DNA of 25,386 nucleotides from Thermoplasmata archaeon M9B2D (GTDB lineage: Archaea; Thermoplasmatota; E2; DHVEG-1), in NCBI GenBank assembly GCA_002900555.1, contig MUGD01000024.1, positions 1 through 25,386 on the forward strand, read 5' to 3'. Positions within the stretch are counted from its first letter, which is position 1. Each line of letters opens with the position of its first letter. Shown piece by piece: positions 3,553 to 25,077 of this stretch. A program made the position numbers and the translations under genes. The notes under the pieces were generated by a model that saw only the letters and a list, made by a program, of their open reading frames with translations, was not told where the DNA came from and made no database searches.

Positions 3553-3695
3553 ATGGGGGAGTCAAGAGAGATAAGTTCGTTTAATCCTCGCCAGTATTTT
3601 CCGCATAGCGCCTTCCTCATTTCCTTTGAATCAAGGCTCCCCCGTTTCCCCCGTTGAGGGGCAGGTGAAAGGTGTTATAGATCTATAATTTTTTT
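3553..3695 (+). ncRNA. Candidate structured small RNA (or 34-residue leaderless microprotein)
   Basis: The unit starts at the expected transcription start. GGGGGAG (3555-3561) pairs perfectly with CTCCCCC (3637-3643), closing an 89-base element. Inside is a hairpin at 3566-3589 with a UUCG tetraloop, and GCCTT (3610-3614) can pair with AAGGC (3633-3637). A CCCC/GGGG hairpin follows at 3648-3661. It is not a tRNA: no D-arm or anticodon arm fits. The same strand also holds a leaderless 34-codon frame, 3553-3657 (MGESREISSF...), ending before the terminator, so a microprotein is the alternative. Confidence 0.4.
3675..3695 (+). terminator. Palindrome plus oligo-T terminator
   Basis: TTATAGATCTATAA is a perfect 14-base palindrome at 3675-3688, followed directly by seven T residues. 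Confidence 0.5.
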
Positions 3696-6546: not shown

Positions 6547-6581
6547 AAATTCTGGTAAAATTCTGGTAAAACCATATATAA
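6547..6581 (+). promoter_or_regulatory. Promoter with tandem 11-bp repeats before the TATA box
   Basis: The unit AAATTCTGGTA occurs twice head to tail (6547-6557, 6558-6568), followed by AAACC and the TATA box ATATATAA at 6574-6581. Eleven bases is about one DNA helix turn, so two protein subunits would bind the same face just upstream of TBP/TFB. This is the promoter of the 6627-7385 gene pair. Confidence 0.5.
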
Positions 6582-16364: not shown

Positions 16365-18206
16365 ATGGATGTTGTGATGCATAATCAAAATGTTAAAAAT
16401 AAAACAACAATGCATCGTCCAACTATTACGGTTTCTTCTTGTTTCTCAGGATATATTCTTAAAGGGGAGCAGGATAATAACATAGTACATAGGGGGATAT
16501 CGTCTCTGAATCAGAAAGGATTGACCGCTGGAGTGGTTCTTTTAGTACTTGGAGCAGGTGTTATTCCTCTAACTGCATACGAGGGGGCAACACCATATCA
16601 TCTCGCGTCACAAGGGGACTGGTTGTATGTGGGTGGGTCTGGGCCAGGGAATTTTTCAGAGATTCAGCAGGCGATTGACAATGCAAGTGATGGAGATACC
16701 GTGTTTGTGTTTAGTGGAACATATGTCGGTCATCTCAACATCAATAAATCCATCACTCTTCTTGGTGAGGATAAAAATACAACGTTTATACTTGGATATG
16801 TTGCATTTACCATTTCATTTATTTCTGATTGGGTGACGATGGGCAGGTTCACCATTCAAAACAGTGGGCGTCTCGGTGAGGGGATTCGAATCGACTCCTC
16901 CCATAACATGTTTTTTGATACCATCATTGAATTCCCCTATGACAACATACGGATCGCTGGAGATCACAACACCATCACAGCAAACATCATTTCTTGCGAC
17001 ACGATCTATCTAGGGGGACAAGGCAATATCATCACTGGGAACTCTATCACGAATGCCGTCCATGGGATCTACCTTACAGATGCAGAGGACAATATCATTA
17101 CCCATAACACGTTTCTTTCCTGTGGGTTATTTCTTTCCGATGACTCACCGTGCAATACTCTTGTGACAAACAACACGGTGAACGGCAAGCCTCTTATCTA
17201 TCTCTCCAACACATCTGATAGGATAGTTTCTTCCGATGCAGGGCAAATAATTCTTGTCGAGTGCATCAACATCACCGTGCATAATCACGCACTCTTCAAC
17301 ACGACGGTCGGTATCCAGGTGTTACGGTCCTCAGCCTGTGTCGTCTCGGGGAACATCATCGGAGACAGCCTGTATGGTGTATGGCTGAACGGGTGGTACA
17401 ACACCCTCTATGGGAACACCATCAGGGACAACGAGTACGGCATACTGCTCAAAGACTCTGTTGGCAATCGTCTGTACCATAACAATCTTCTCCACAACAC
17501 CCTTAATGCATTTGACTCGCTGAGTAACACCTGGGATGACCCATTACGTCATGAAGGGAATTATTGGTCGGATTACACTGGAGGAGATACTGATGGTGAT
17601 GGAATCGGGGACACGCCATATGATATTCCTGGCGGGGATAATCAAGACCATTATCCGTTCATGGAACCAAATGGATGGATACACCCACCATACCCACCAT
17701 CTATACACGGGCCACATTGTGGTAAAAGAAACACAGTGTACATATTCTCGATTGATACGGTCACTTGCCCGGAGGAAGACCACCTGTATTGTATGTGGGA
17801 CTGGGGTGATGGGACTCAGAGTGATTGGCTTGGTCCGTATGACTCTGGGGATGTCGTGGAGACATCCCATGCGTGGAGCAACCAAGGGTCATATATAATA
17901 ACCGTGAAACTGAAGAACAGTACCGGTGCGGAAGGAAACTGGTCAGAGCCATTTCCTATCGATATCACGTCAAAGGTATTGCTTGGTGGAATCATACAGA
18001 GTGTTGTAAACCAAAGCGGGATATGCAGTATCTTTGAGATGTCTCGTGTAGTGATTATCAGCGGAAACCCCTTTGCCATGGAAAGGTATTTTTCGATGCA
18101 GGTCCTCATTGTTTTTGATGAGTTCAGAGGTATGATGGCACCACGGTTTATCGCTGGAGTTATGTATGCAATGATCCTAAACAAAGAACAAGGCGTTCTT
18201 TTATGA
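16365..18206 (+). CDS. Exported NosD-like beta-helix protein with PKD and C-terminal beta domain
   Basis: 613 residues. A polar 50-residue start is followed by a membrane/signal segment (LTAGVVLLVLGAGVIPLTAY, about 52-71); later methionines (5, 16) are possible starts. Residues about 85-400 form a NosD/CASH-type right-handed beta-helix with repeats such as GDHNTITANI and GQGNIITGNSITNA. It closes with NYWSDYTGGDTDGDGIGDTPY (calcium-binding end near 406-418). A PKD domain follows (WDWGDGTQSDWLGPYDSG, HAWSNQGSYIITVK). Residues 537-607 (LLGGIIQSV to FIAGVMYAMIL) form a small beta domain that recurs at the start of the cyclophilin protein. NosD family members bind carbohydrate or copper; here a surface carbohydrate or adhesive role is likelier. 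Confidence 0.82.
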   Translation: MDVVMHNQNVKNKTTMHRPTITVSSCFSGYILKGEQDNNIVHRGISSLNQKGLTAGVVLLVLGAGVIPLTAYEGATPYHLASQGDWLYVGGSGPGNFSEIQQAIDNASDGDTVFVFSGTYVGHLNINKSITLLGEDKNTTFILGYVAFTISFISDWVTMGRFTIQNSGRLGEGIRIDSSHNMFFDTIIEFPYDNIRIAGDHNTITANIISCDTIYLGGQGNIITGNSITNAVHGIYLTDAEDNIITHNTFLSCGLFLSDDSPCNTLVTNNTVNGKPLIYLSNTSDRIVSSDAGQIILVECINITVHNHALFNTTVGIQVLRSSACVVSGNIIGDSLYGVWLNGWYNTLYGNTIRDNEYGILLKDSVGNRLYHNNLLHNTLNAFDSLSNTWDDPLRHEGNYWSDYTGGDTDGDGIGDTPYDIPGGDNQDHYPFMEPNGWIHPPYPPSIHGPHCGKRNTVYIFSIDTVTCPEEDHLYCMWDWGDGTQSDWLGPYDSGDVVETSHAWSNQGSYIITVKLKNSTGAEGNWSEPFPIDITSKVLLGGIIQSVVNQSGICSIFEMSRVVIISGNPFAMERYFSMQVLIVFDEFRGMMAPRFIAGVMYAMILNKEQGVLL

Positions 18207-18605: not shown

Positions 18606-18851
18606 ATGAAAAGGAAAACTATGATAGTAGCAGTATGTGTGATCGTAGGGTTTGTCAGTATCGCTAGCACAGCGATCGCATCAAATAGTGCAGGACCTGC
18701 CCCTAACTCAGGTGACGGAGATTCTGACGGCAGCGGGTTTGAAGTCCGTCCTGGTCCTAATGGGGAGCTTAACGGATACGGACATCTTGGTCCTGCCCCT
18801 AACTCAGGTGATGGAATCCATGATGGACCTGGGTGGGATGAGGAAGAATAA
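18606..18851 (+). CDS. Small secreted acidic GPAPNSGDG-repeat protein
   Basis: 81 residues. A signal peptide covers residues 1-26 (MIVAVCVIVGFVSIASTAIA). The mature peptide of about 55 residues holds two copies of GPAPNSGDG followed by a D-G element (GDSDGSG and GIHDGPGW), plus a weaker middle element (RPGPNGELNGYG), and ends WDEEE. The Asp/Asn/Gly spacing suggests calcium binding, as in TSP3-like loops. No cysteine. Its ribosome binding site is strong, so it may be made in quantity. Similar short GPAPNSGDGxPDG proteins exist in other archaea, to my knowledge without known function. Confidence 0.7.
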   Translation: MKRKTMIVAVCVIVGFVSIASTAIASNSAGPAPNSGDGDSDGSGFEVRPGPNGELNGYGHLGPAPNSGDGIHDGPGWDEEE

Positions 18852-19035: not shown

Positions 19036-19089
19036 GGATTCATAGGATAATTAATCATACTCTGGTTGGAAAAAGAAGGATTCTTTCCT

Positions 19090-20838
19090 ATGAGCATCAT
19101 CAAACTGACCGATGTCTTTATGGTATTGCTCCTGCTTAGCAGCGTCTCGGTGCTGGCAGCAGGCGTTGAAAAGAGTAGTTATGAAGCTAGTGCAGAGGAG
19201 ACTGCAGAGGTCTTCTCAGATGAAGAGTTGTATAAGCGGATGTTTCTGCTTGGTCGGGTTCATACACTGATGACCGATGAGAGGTACTCGACTGTTATGG
19301 CGGTGAATGTGTACATCGTATTCTTCAAACCCATTCAATTCCTTCATTACACCAACGGGGAACAGATCACGTTTCTAAATCAGGATAGAGGAATAATCCT
19401 TAGGGATGTATTTCTCCTTGGTGGTTTTACGGTGGTTCTGCCGTGTAATAAAAATAGTATCGCAGTGATAAATACGACGAAGGGAACGATGGTTGTGGAG
19501 CTGTTTGAGGATAGGATGCCGAACACCACTGCAAACTTCATCCGACTTGCAACGGATGGATTTTATGATGGGTTGGTGTTTCATCGGGTGATTAATAACT
19601 TTGTTATTCAGGGTGGTGGATATTACCCAAACGGAACTTTAAAGGAAAGCCCATATGGCCCGATTGATCTGGAGGTTCATCCTGAGGTGCGTCATCTTGA
19701 TGGTACGATTGGGATGGCGCGGACCAGTGACCCGAACAGTGCGACCAGTCAGTTTTTTATCGACGATGGCAGGCAGCGGCAACTGGAACCCGGTGGGGTG
19801 GATTCCTATGGGTATGCCGCGTTTGGCAGGGTGGTAAACGGTATTGAAGTGGTGCGTGCCATAGCCAAAGTTCAGACGACAACAAAATACGGGTCTATGG
19901 AGAACTGGCCGGTTGAGGACGTAATCATACAGCAGATTCGCATTCTCCGTCCTGCTACGGTTACCATCACCGATTATGTTGGGGATATCTGTTCCTTTGA
20001 TTATCTGACTGGTGAGACGACGATTGTGACCAATTCCACAGAGATTTGTGTGGAGAATCTTGATATCGAACGGGCAACCTATATCCAACAAGGAATGGTG
20101 TGTACCGTTTGTTTACATGTTGTGGGCAATATTGAAAACAGGGGGACATTCAGAAATGACTCTAATTTTACATGGTATATAGACATGGTCGAATATGGAT
20201 TTCAGATGTCGACCTCCGAACAAGATTATTTTGTGAGTTACTGCAATAGGACCGGTACGCTGTGCTATGGCGCTGTGGTACGAAACCTCACCTCAGAGGA
20301 TTTCATGGTTGTTGCCGAAACCCTTTCCTTTACGTTTTATTTGGAACGTCCTACGGAACAATATGAATCTCTTAGTGTCTATGCTGCATACGTAAAAATT
20401 AATTTTTCCCATCCGGCTTCAACGTTTCTGTATTTTATAGATATCGCTCCAAACCCCCCGCTTGAGATTTCTGAAATCTGGGCGCCACATGTCGGGTACG
20501 TTGGTGAGACCATTCAGTTTAACGCAAGCGTGCAGCCGCTCACAGGGCTACCACCCTACAGTTATCTGTGGGAGTTTGGCGATCAGGGAACCTCAACAAA
20601 GTTAAACCCAACACATGTGTACACAGACCCAGGCGTCTATACCTACCCGTCACTGATGCTGCGGGAAACACTGCCAATGCGTCTGGTACGATTACGATTC
20701 TTGTTCCCGATGTGGCGATGGGGTTGTTTGTATTTGAGGAAGTTGTGGTCTGCTGTTGCAATGAGACAACTGATGTGGTGGCATCCTCTTGATATCATCA
20801 TGTTTTTCTCTGATACGCTATCGTACCTTCGTAGGTGA
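19090..20838 (+). CDS. Exported cyclophilin-type peptidyl-prolyl isomerase with flanking beta and PKD domains, frameshifted at the 3' end
   Basis: From ATG 19090 (AAGGA eight bases upstream; a TTG at 19066 is less likely). Signal peptide to about residue 24 (MVLLLLSSVSVLAAG). Residues 50-118 (MFLLGRVHTL to FLLGGFTVV) form the small beta domain also at the end of the NosD protein. Residues 122-288 are a cyclophilin with the active-site set FHRVINNFVIQGGG and SATSQFFIDDG, so prolyl cis-trans isomerase activity outside the cell is likely. An unknown region follows, then a PKD domain from about 457 (YSYLWEFGDQGTS, HVYTDPGVYTY). At CCC 20646-20648 the frame slips by one base; the other frame carries the PKD end VTDAAGNTANASGTITILVP and stops at 20792. 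Confidence 0.8.
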   Translation: MSIIKLTDVFMVLLLLSSVSVLAAGVEKSSYEASAEETAEVFSDEELYKRMFLLGRVHTLMTDERYSTVMAVNVYIVFFKPIQFLHYTNGEQITFLNQDRGIILRDVFLLGGFTVVLPCNKNSIAVINTTKGTMVVELFEDRMPNTTANFIRLATDGFYDGLVFHRVINNFVIQGGGYYPNGTLKESPYGPIDLEVHPEVRHLDGTIGMARTSDPNSATSQFFIDDGRQRQLEPGGVDSYGYAAFGRVVNGIEVVRAIAKVQTTTKYGSMENWPVEDVIIQQIRILRPATVTITDYVGDICSFDYLTGETTIVTNSTEICVENLDIERATYIQQGMVCTVCLHVVGNIENRGTFRNDSNFTWYIDMVEYGFQMSTSEQDYFVSYCNRTGTLCYGAVVRNLTSEDFMVVAETLSFTFYLERPTEQYESLSVYAAYVKINFSHPASTFLYFIDIAPNPPLEISEIWAPHVGYVGETIQFNASVQPLTGLPPYSYLWEFGDQGTSTKLNPTHVYTDPGVYTYPSLMLRETLPMRLVRLRFLFPMWRWGCLYLRKLWSAVAMRQLMWWHPLDIIMFFSDTLSYLRR

Positions 20839-21023: not shown

Positions 21024-21032
21024 TTTATATAA
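21024..21032 (+). promoter_or_regulatory. TATA box of the caspase-like gene
   Basis: TTTATATAA, 40-48 bases before ATG 21072; GGGGG (21060-21065) is the ribosome binding site. Confidence 0.5.
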
Positions 21033-21071
21033 ATGATGTTCTTATTATAACAAGATGATAGGGGGTACATT

Positions 21072-22021
21072 ATGAAAGTAGGTAGAAACACATTCATAGG
21101 CTGCGCATCATTCATCTGCGTTGTGTTGCTGTTGTGTTGCTGCTGTCACCTGCATGGGCTACAGCAGTCAATGTAGGGCAACACAATAAAGAAAGCGAAG
21201 CGTCCCAGGGAACGTCGGAATCCAATTATTGGGCGCTGCTATTTGCGGTGGGAGTGTATCTGAATGCTCCTGACCAGAATCGCCCCTCCATGCTTGAAGC
21301 ATGCGATAACCTGACTGCATGTCTTCTTGATTCACCTCAGTATTGGAACGAAGAAAATATTCGGGTGGTCAAAGGGAGTGATGCAACGCTTCAGAACCTG
21401 ATTAAAGGACTTCTTTGGTTACGGAAGAATTCACAAAGTGAGGATCACGTTGTCGTCTACATCACGACGCATGGGAATCACCTCTACAGCCCCTTTAATG
21501 GTCAACCATGGGATCTGCCTCCAAAGGACGAGGCTGATGGCTCAGACGAGGTTCTTATCATGTATAACGGATTTAACAAATGGTATGGGTTTATCACGGA
21601 TGATCTGCTGAATTTCTTCTTAAGCATGATCCGCTGTCAAGGCCTGTGTCTTATCGTTGACTCCTGCTATAGTGGCGGGTTTAATGACCCCCCGATGTTC
21701 GGCACCACTCGTCAGGATCGACAGGTGACGTACACTGCAGAGAGTTATAGCGAGGGGTTTGTGCAAAGCGTCGCAGGCCAGGGTCGAGTGGTCCTTATGT
21801 CCTCTCAGGAGAATCAGGTGTCGTATGGCTCGTTCTTCTCAGATTTTCTTATCAGTGGGTTTAACGGATGGGCAGATTCCAATGGCAATCACGATGGTAT
21901 TAACTCAGCGGAGGAGGCTTTTTCGTATGCCAAACCATGGGTCGAACTGTTTGTGTTTTTCTGGACAGGGCATCAACAAACCCCGACGATCAGTGACTTA
22001 TATCCAGGGGAGTTCCCCTAA
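21072..22021 (+). CDS. Exported caspase-like (clan CD, C14-type) cysteine peptidase, frame broken by an 11-bp duplication
   Basis: ATG 21072 has a TATA box and GGGGGT upstream and starts MKVGRNTFIGCASFICVVLL, but this frame ends at a TAG near 21174. The peptidase frame is open from 21134 and would lack most of the signal. Removing one copy of the 11-bp repeat at 21120-21141 joins both as CVVLLLSPAWATAV, a normal signal peptide with an AWA cleavage site, giving about 312 residues. The fold signature is YWALLFAVGVYLN and ACDNLTACLLDS. The catalytic pair is H130 in YITTHGNHL and C195 in LIVDSCYSGGF (repaired numbering). An acidic GWADSNGNHDGINSAEEAF loop may bind calcium. Probable role: extracellular protein cleavage or maturation. 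Confidence 0.75.
21120..21141 (+). repeat. Exact 11-bp tandem duplication in the signal-peptide coding region
   Basis: GTTGTGTTGCT occurs twice head to tail (21120-21130, 21131-21141), followed by the partial unit GCTG. Eleven is not a multiple of three, so the extra copy shifts the frame. Confidence 0.85.
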
Positions 22022-23013: not shown

Positions 23014-25077
23014 TTAGCTTACGTTCAGGACGAAGGGTCCAAAGACGAATGCAGATGCGGTTTTCTCTGCGGTTTTTCCCTCGTCGCAGCTTGCCGATAC
23101 CTTGATGGTTGTTTTACCAATCCCAAAGACAAAACCTGTTTTAATGGATATTTGAGTTCCTTCTGCGATACTTGTTTCTACGCCCCCTGATGATTTTCCA
23201 ATGAAGATCAATGTACCGTCAAGGACGATGGTCCAGGAAACCTTCGTTGCTTCTGCAGTACCGTTGTTCTTAACAACCGCTGATACACCTATTCCACCGA
23301 CGATTTCACCAATCCAAAGGACCGGTCCTTTGATAGTTACGTTTAACGGATCAGACAACGGGCTTTCTGCTCCGTAGGCGTCCTTTGCTTTCACTTGGAT
23401 GGCATATACGCCTTGGTCAGACCATACATGTGTTGCAGTGATGGTATGACCGGAAGGATATGGACCAAGCCAGTTCCCTGGTGAGTTATCACCCCAGTCA
23501 AACCAATAATAGACCTCGTCATCATCTGGATCGGTTGTGACAACAGAGTAATTATACATTCTGCCGGTTTTTCCGTCTGTTGGACCGGTAGGTTTTTCAG
23601 GGGTGTTTGGTGGAAAATTTTCCCTGTATTTATAAAAAATATCGTAGTCCGTGCCGCTGCCACCATATTCAGTTCCGTCCTCCCAGGCGACATGTACTAC
23701 ACCCTTGCTATCCACAAACGATGTAGGATATTTACTTAAGCTTGTACTTTCAGTGCTTACCACCTCCGCTGCTATCCAGCTGCCTCCACTGGGTTTTTGC
23801 TTATAGAAAATATCCCGGTCGCTGCCGCTGCCACCATACTCCGTAAGATCGTCCCAGGTGACATGTACTGTGCCTTCGTAATCCACAGATATTGAAGGGT
23901 TGCTGCTAAAGGCTGTGCTCTCGGTACTTACTACCTCTGTTGTTGTCCAGCTGCCTCCACTTGGTTTTTGCTTGTAGAAAATATCTTCATCCTCGCCACT
24001 ACCACTATAATACGTCCTATCCGCCCAGGCGACATGTACAGTGCCTACAGAGTCTACAGACAATGACGGATTCCAGCTTAAGCCTGTGCTCTCGGTGCTT
24101 ACTACCTCTGTTGTTGTCCAGCTGCCACCGCTAGGTTTCCGTTTGTAGAAAACATCAGGATCGCTGCCACTGCCGCCATAGTTGGTCCCGTCATACCAGG
24201 CGACATGTACAGTGCCTGCAGCGTCTACAGACAATGACGGATTCCAGCTTAAGCCTGTGCTCTCGGTGCTTACCACCTCGGTTGTTGTCCAGCTGCCTCC
24301 ACTGGGTTTTTGCTTGTAGAAAATATCCTGGTCGCTACCGCTGCCGCCATAATTCGTTTCATCAAACCATGTGACATGTACCGAGCCTGCAGCGTCTACA
24401 GACAAAGACGGGTGCGAACTATATTCTGTGCTTTCTGTGCTTACCACCTCTGTTGTTGTCCAGCTGCCTCCACTTGGTTTTTGTTTATAAAAGATATCCC
24501 AGTCACTGCCACATCCACCATAATCCGTGCCGTCATACCAGGCGAGATGCAGTGTACCTAAGGCGTCCACGGCCAAGGAAGGATTATAGCTATGGTCTGA
24601 GCTTTCTGTGCTTACCACCTCTGTTGTCGTCCAGCTGCCGTTAACTGGTTTTTTTTTATAAAAAATGTCCTCATCATAGCCACTGCCGCCGTAATCCGAC
24701 CTATCGCTCCAGGCGATATGCACCGTACCCTCATTGTCAACTACAACGGAAGGAGTATAACAATTCCCTATGCTTTCTGTGCTTACCACCTCAGTCACAC
24801 TCCAGCCTTTACACATTACTAAAGCCTTCTGAGTATTTCTATCTTCATTTGCGTCATCACCCCAGGGACACCTCTGAGGCATCAGACAGGATTGTCTTGG
24901 TACATATGCATCATGACATCGAGTATCGGATTCGTTCATGTGCATGAATATCTGCTTACCATGTGCTGTAGGGAGAGTTTTTTCTCCGCTCTCACCAAAA
25001 ATCCCTGTTCCAATACTTATACCAAATAAAAGAGCTATTCCAAAGACAATACTTTTTGTTTTTATTCTTGTTCTCAT
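23014..25077 (-). CDS. Secreted seven-bladed beta-propeller / PKD / CARDB-like protein
   Basis: 687 residues. A signal or membrane segment spans residues 10-28 (IVFGIALLFGISIGTGIFG). After a Cys-containing linker, residues 92-490 are seven tandem repeats of 57 residues with the core WTTTEVVSTEST, PSLSVDAAGTVHVAW, GGSGSD and DIFYKQKPSGGS, a sialidase-like (Asp-box related) propeller. No sialidase active-site Arg triad is evident. A PKD domain follows (about 491-585: FDWGDNSPGNWLGPYPSG, HVWSDQGVYAIQVKAKD). The last 100 residues (GGIGVSAVVKNNGTAEATKV) are CARDB-like. GGGGAGG precedes ATG 25077. Likely role: surface adhesion or carbohydrate/protein binding. Confidence 0.85.
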   Translation of the reverse strand: MRTRIKTKSIVFGIALLFGISIGTGIFGESGEKTLPTAHGKQIFMHMNESDTRCHDAYVPRQSCLMPQRCPWGDDANEDRNTQKALVMCKGWSVTEVVSTESIGNCYTPSVVVDNEGTVHIAWSDRSDYGGSGYDEDIFYKKKPVNGSWTTTEVVSTESSDHSYNPSLAVDALGTLHLAWYDGTDYGGCGSDWDIFYKQKPSGGSWTTTEVVSTESTEYSSHPSLSVDAAGSVHVTWFDETNYGGSGSDQDIFYKQKPSGGSWTTTEVVSTESTGLSWNPSLSVDAAGTVHVAWYDGTNYGGSGSDPDVFYKRKPSGGSWTTTEVVSTESTGLSWNPSLSVDSVGTVHVAWADRTYYSGSGEDEDIFYKQKPSGGSWTTTEVVSTESTAFSSNPSISVDYEGTVHVTWDDLTEYGGSGSDRDIFYKQKPSGGSWIAAEVVSTESTSLSKYPTSFVDSKGVVHVAWEDGTEYGGSGTDYDIFYKYRENFPPNTPEKPTGPTDGKTGRMYNYSVVTTDPDDDEVYYWFDWGDNSPGNWLGPYPSGHTITATHVWSDQGVYAIQVKAKDAYGAESPLSDPLNVTIKGPVLWIGEIVGGIGVSAVVKNNGTAEATKVSWTIVLDGTLIFIGKSSGGVETSIAEGTQISIKTGFVFGIGKTTIKVSASCDEGKTAEKTASAFVFGPFVLNVS
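23608..24804 (-). repeat. Seven tandem 171-bp coding repeats
   Basis: The propeller blades repeat at DNA level with period 171 bp (57 codons). The third to sixth copies are the most alike, with long shared blocks; the first and last are more diverged, as is usual for arrays homogenised by recombination. Confidence 0.8.

Follow-up and report, generated by a model that had tools for sequence, protein, structure and literature searches.

Prokaryotic metacaspases, or orthocaspases (family C14, clan CD), have a His-Cys dyad, the motif VDSCYSGG and a caspase-like fold, and cleavage after Arg or Lys is a criterion of a metacaspase-like peptidase. A survey reports N-terminal helices or signal peptides in some of them, and among 114 archaeal genomes it found 5 with a single metacaspase each (PMC3501461). 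The gene described here lies in a window of 25,386 nucleotides, i.e. the whole stretch of DNA that was analysed. It shares the dyad, the motif and the fold, but its signal peptide is out of frame and its protein, taken alone, is below the Pfam cut-off. As against the survey's figure, matches at E 1e-3, counting weak and distant ones, occur in 49 of 52 genomes of the order to which the nearest genome belongs.

In microhomology-mediated tandem duplication, a short perfect homology of several bases is present at both ends of the duplicated segment. The pneumococcal capsule gene cap3A is reportedly switched off by tandem duplications of about 11 bases and more in one reading frame, and precise loss of the duplication is said to restore it; both states are said to have been isolated in cap3A, whereas the window lineage has presented the two-copy state only. 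In ssp1 of Schizosaccharomyces pombe, according to a review, a microhomology-mediated two-copy segment causes an early stop, and return to one copy is possible (PMC13207564). The present locus is similar in that a single short coding segment was made two-copy with an early stop, but ssp1-type duplications are bounded by microhomology pairs, whereas the homology of the window repeat extends 1 base past the unit. Simple-sequence contingency loci usually consist of many short units and show known polymorphism (PMC4235727). As in the window, the copy number of their repeat sets the reading frame, but the window has two 11-base units, and the relatives examined lack this repeat. The spontaneous mutations recorded for Sulfolobus acidocaldarius include tandem duplications (PMC7785828), and a 2025 review leaves to future work the question of how far phase variation extends into archaea (PMC11868660). 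No report of duplication-driven phase variation in archaea was recognised in a literature search of partial coverage, and phase variation is little documented in archaea.

The repeat and its two reading frames

The 11-base unit GTTGTGTTGCT is present in two exact copies, head to tail (Table 1), as the first-pass annotation had stated. The period-11 match run at 21120 is 12 bases long, which for an 11-base unit leaves 1 base of homology past the unit, i.e. no bounding microhomology was found. The unit length is not divisible by 3, and the two frames flank the array. The frame from ATG 21072 has 34 residues and ends at TAG 21174-21176, in agreement with the earlier claim that it closes after 34 codons. 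The frame of the caspase-like domain can be read from GTG 21134, its first usual start codon, to a TAA. The first-pass annotation had also proposed that the second copy separates a signal peptide from an intact caspase-like domain, and this view is supported by the relatives, which show the continuous form. The box TTTATATA at 21024 may be a promoter element, a role that we assign from the layout of archaeal promoters. No ribosome-binding site was seen by eye in the sequence before GTG 21134.

Table 1. Coordinates of the repeat, the two frames and neighbouring features in the window
Feature	Position	Strand	Basis
Cyclophilin-PKD gene, out-of-frame stretch ~20646-20743	19066..20838	+	Protein comparison with P0123 and P0124
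TATA-like box TTTATATA, possible archaeal promoter element	21024..21031	+	Sequence match; role presumed from promoter layout
GGGGG, likely ribosome-binding site of ATG 21072	21061..21065	+	Position; role presumed
34-codon frame: signal-peptide start, then out-of-frame tail and TAG	21072..21176	+	Open reading frame; relative P0003
11-base unit, copy 1, GTTGTGTTGCT	21120..21130	+	Direct sequence match
11-base unit, copy 2	21131..21141	+	Direct sequence match
Metacaspase-like domain frame, 295 residues	21134..22021	+	Open reading frame; 283/294 residues identical to P0003; fold
Catalytic-type His codon, H113	21470..21472	+	Invariant in 40/40 rows
Catalytic-type Cys codon, C178, in VDSCYSGG	21665..21667	+	Invariant in 40/40 rows
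Stop codon after GEFP; the four tail residues of P0003 absent	22019..22021	+	Alignment

Relatives, ancestral state and conservation of the domain

A protein search found 401 relatives at E 1e-3, of which the best 120 were listed; the window protein and 39 of these 120 were aligned (40 rows). The closest of the listed relatives, P0003 (316 aa, a cluster of 9 members, 96% identity in the domain), runs from signal peptide to domain as one chain without a break. Either side of the repeat, the respective window frame tracks P0003: 14 of the first 18 residues of the ATG 21072 frame are identical to it, as are 283 of 294 residues of the domain frame. Reading across the repeat site is unbroken in all 39 aligned relatives, P0003 included.

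Since predicted proteins favour intact genes, DNA loci were examined as well. A first genome scan with a single protein gave no match, and a second scan with patterns within the domain gave 27 loci (L001-L027). L022-L023 (partial, 31-32% identity) and L024-L027 (bacteria) were left out of the count of 21 archaeal loci. In 21/21 of these the domain frame reaches an upstream ATG, and by eye each opens with a hydrophobic stretch; we note that the 21 are not independent orthologues, as several come from one genome (e.g. four from CSMAG_1320) and three belong to a longer subfamily (L013, L015, L021). The search across the order of the nearest genome agrees, with an internal stop absent from every match listed. 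The genomes of this order have up to 9 match rows each, and the longer subfamily there has open frames of ~670-730 codons.

The two-copy array was found in none of 54 fetched loci. Among the tandem units listed for the 100 bases that follow the first ATG, none is of 8-15 bases in any of the 21 loci; shorter units of 5-7 bases occur in this stretch in some of them. With the array absent from all 54 loci and no unit of 8-15 bases in the 21, we rule out that the repeat is a trait of the family. Likewise, a two-copy state with a conserved start at 21134, the outcome that would have spoken against the first-pass annotation, was not found in the 54 loci or the 39 aligned relatives. Because the relatives and the archaeal DNA loci read on unbroken, the continuous frame is ancestral and the second copy derived. 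When 80 genomes of the class were searched at the DNA level, the best identity was 68-72%. Plasmid and viral-contig searches gave no match, and the Rfam and tRNA searches found nothing.

The complete catalytic domain that had been described with H130 and C195 is indeed present; numbered from GTG 21134, these residues are H113 and C178, and both are invariant in the alignment. The protein has a caspase-like fold, closest to that of metacaspases. It has no match in Pfam at the cut-off (C13 reached 17.7 bits against a cut-off of 22.8), and among family members at E 1e-3, 20 of 40 match Peptidase_C14 and 5 match Peptidase_C13, but the window protein has no match at that threshold. When the DNA was compared with four relatives of 62-64% protein identity, the differences were concentrated in third codon positions (e.g. 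88, 53 and 176 differences from L001 at codon positions 1, 2 and 3), and 49-52% of the changed codons were synonymous. The concentration in third positions shows that the domain was under purifying selection for a long time.

The 11 differences between the domain and P0003 are mostly at variable columns; one exception is E29, where 30 of 38 other rows have Q. The window frame closes after GEFP, whereas P0003 goes on for another four residues. A threonine of this tail is kept in the other 38/38 aligned rows; the distant locus L019 ends differently. The earlier statement that the remainder of the gene is free of decay thus has to be qualified, as these four tail residues are missing.

Tandem units and small indels in the window

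The window contains two exact tandem units of 11-30 bases, at 6547 and 21120; of 60 dinucleotide shuffles, two contained any such unit (mean 0.03 per window). The 11-mer itself, with one mismatch or fewer, matches the window at the 2 copies only, and at least 2 matches occurred in 9 of 100 shuffles. In other words, the number of 11-mer matches alone is unremarkable, and the improbable part is the exact adjacency. Exact tandem units of 9-60 bases number six in the 25.4-kb window (at 3638, 6547, 8148, 17683, 21120 and 24424), each of 9-11 bases, compared with 7 in the archaeal loci L001-L023 (n=23, 281,685 bases), i.e. 0.63 per window length. This comparison is suggestive, and no more, of a general excess of tandem duplications in the window over the loci of the relatives. 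The unit at 17683 is probably not unique to the window lineage, since the protein encoded by the stretch around it is identical in P0243. Three of the six units are inside listed frames, and among those the unit at 21120 is the only one whose length is not a multiple of 3.

The neighbouring cyclophilin-PKD gene also differs from its relatives. Compared with P0123 (99% identical), 515 of 519 residues are identical up to ~20646, and from ~20743 on 28 of 31 residues match again; between these points the window has 96 bases, out of frame, where P0123 needs 129. Judged from the protein of the relative, the gene seems to have undergone two deletions, of ~7 and 26 bases. Their sum is a multiple of 3, so the frame would have been lost for 32 codons and then restored. 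The window holds the changed version, since P0124 shares the arrangement of P0123. In comparison, the gene at 16365-18206, 3 kb upstream of the repeat, is identical to P0243 in 605 of 609 residues (99%); its frame starts four residues earlier, and there is no gap after the first residue of P0243. As this gene is ungapped and the others bear indels, small indels cluster at 20.6-22.0 kb among the three genes that were compared this closely.

Gene context is no help for function. When 20 window frames were compared with L001-L023, most matches outside the caspase-like gene were short or weak ones to secreted proteins of repeat type; M28 peptidase matches were found in three of these loci, and a cyclophilin-PKD match in L016 alone, over 80 residues. 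Two other frames of the window look secreted as well. At 18606-18851 an 81-residue frame has a signal-peptide-like start, GPAPNSGDG twice and then an acidic end, and it may encode a small secreted protein. On the reverse strand, 23014-25077 encodes a secreted-looking protein with a 171-base tandem repeat in about five copies, which has weak matches to several Pfam families and to the PKD domain.

A probable recent duplication and its alternatives

We think it probable that slippage recently produced the duplication, that it disrupted the gene for a secreted metacaspase-like protease in an uncultured archaeon related to Thermoplasmatota, and that export was lost or greatly lowered. This reading is favoured because P0003 is unbroken and each window frame tracks it on one side of the repeat, the frame is continuous in the 39 relatives and the 21 loci, the matches listed for the order are free of internal stops, and the array is absent from the 54 loci; it is also favoured by the third-position bias, a sign of long purifying selection on the domain, and by the nearby indels, i.e. 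the two putative deletions in the cyclophilin-PKD gene and the shortened tail. Slippage would have doubled 11 bases in the part of the gene that encodes the signal peptide. Translation from ATG 21072 would then close as a useless 34-residue peptide, and GTG 21134 would be a poor start at best, so that little or no enzyme would be exported. The result would be an ordinary and recent loss-of-function allele in a region where small indels are accumulating, and the protease gene is perhaps under relaxed selection. Precise loss of one copy may happen at a low rate, which would not make the array an evolved switch. Two observations speak against this reading: the domain frame is open to its end, which would be equally expected of an on/off locus or of an assembly error, and the contig is not decaying throughout, as the gene at 16365-18206 has no internal gap.

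An error of assembly or sequencing would mean that the organism carries a single unit and that the second copy, like the indels near it, is artefactual. This would fit the fact that 1.4 kb of one metagenome-like contig contain several multi-base indels. We consider it improbable, because the 22-base array should be shorter than usual reads and k-mers, because the usual errors are single-base, as opposed to indels of 7, 26 and 11 bases, and because no internal gap interrupts the alignment of the gene at 16365-18206 with its 99% relative.

The first-pass annotation had also suggested a slipped-strand on/off switch. Here the second copy would be gained and lost often, a fraction of the cells would export the protease, and selection would keep this state. 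It is true that the unit is perfect, directly adjacent, of a length that is not a multiple of 3 and within the export signal, that the domain is intact, and that reverting two-copy duplications are described for fission yeast (PMC13207564). But there are two copies only, the relatives have no repeat at the site (21 loci; 54 loci), the homology past the unit is 1 base without bounding microhomology, and the other indels close by are explained no less well by plain mutation under weak selection. The proposal is therefore not supported by our data, and we regard it as rather unlikely. Doubtful, too, is the further step that such a two-state duplication switch lets part of a clonal archaeal population release a metacaspase-like enzyme, with a possible role in cell death or at the cell surface.

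Translation from GTG 21134 into an unexported, cytoplasmic form of the enzyme would agree with the frame being open over 21134-22021 with a complete domain, but it is unlikely, given that no ribosome-binding site was seen before 21134, that none of the 39 aligned relatives has its annotated start at or after this column (the latest, P0120, starts four columns earlier), and that basic residues are absent from the first 8 positions of the protein and its uncharged run is 12 residues long, compared with 21-28 in the 29 relatives measured. We note that this count is a simple measure and not a signal-peptide predictor, and that in 2 of the 29 (P0020 and P0022) the first 8 residues, as annotated, likewise include no basic one. 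To judge from these features, export of a protein begun at GTG 21134 is unlikely. A conserved start at GTG 21134 was rejected on the same grounds, i.e. the starts of the 39 relatives and the lack of a binding site before it. Ribosomal frameshifting over the repeat was set aside, as no slippery heptamer was seen near 21120-21145 by eye.

If both states were present in one strain, the locus would offer one of the rare cases in which reversible gene switching in archaea can be tested, and it would bear on the role of exported caspase-like enzymes there. If, on the other hand, the duplication is a newly arisen null mutation, it is ordinary and of modest value; it would suggest that a natural lineage can lose a conserved and exported enzyme of the metacaspase-like type.
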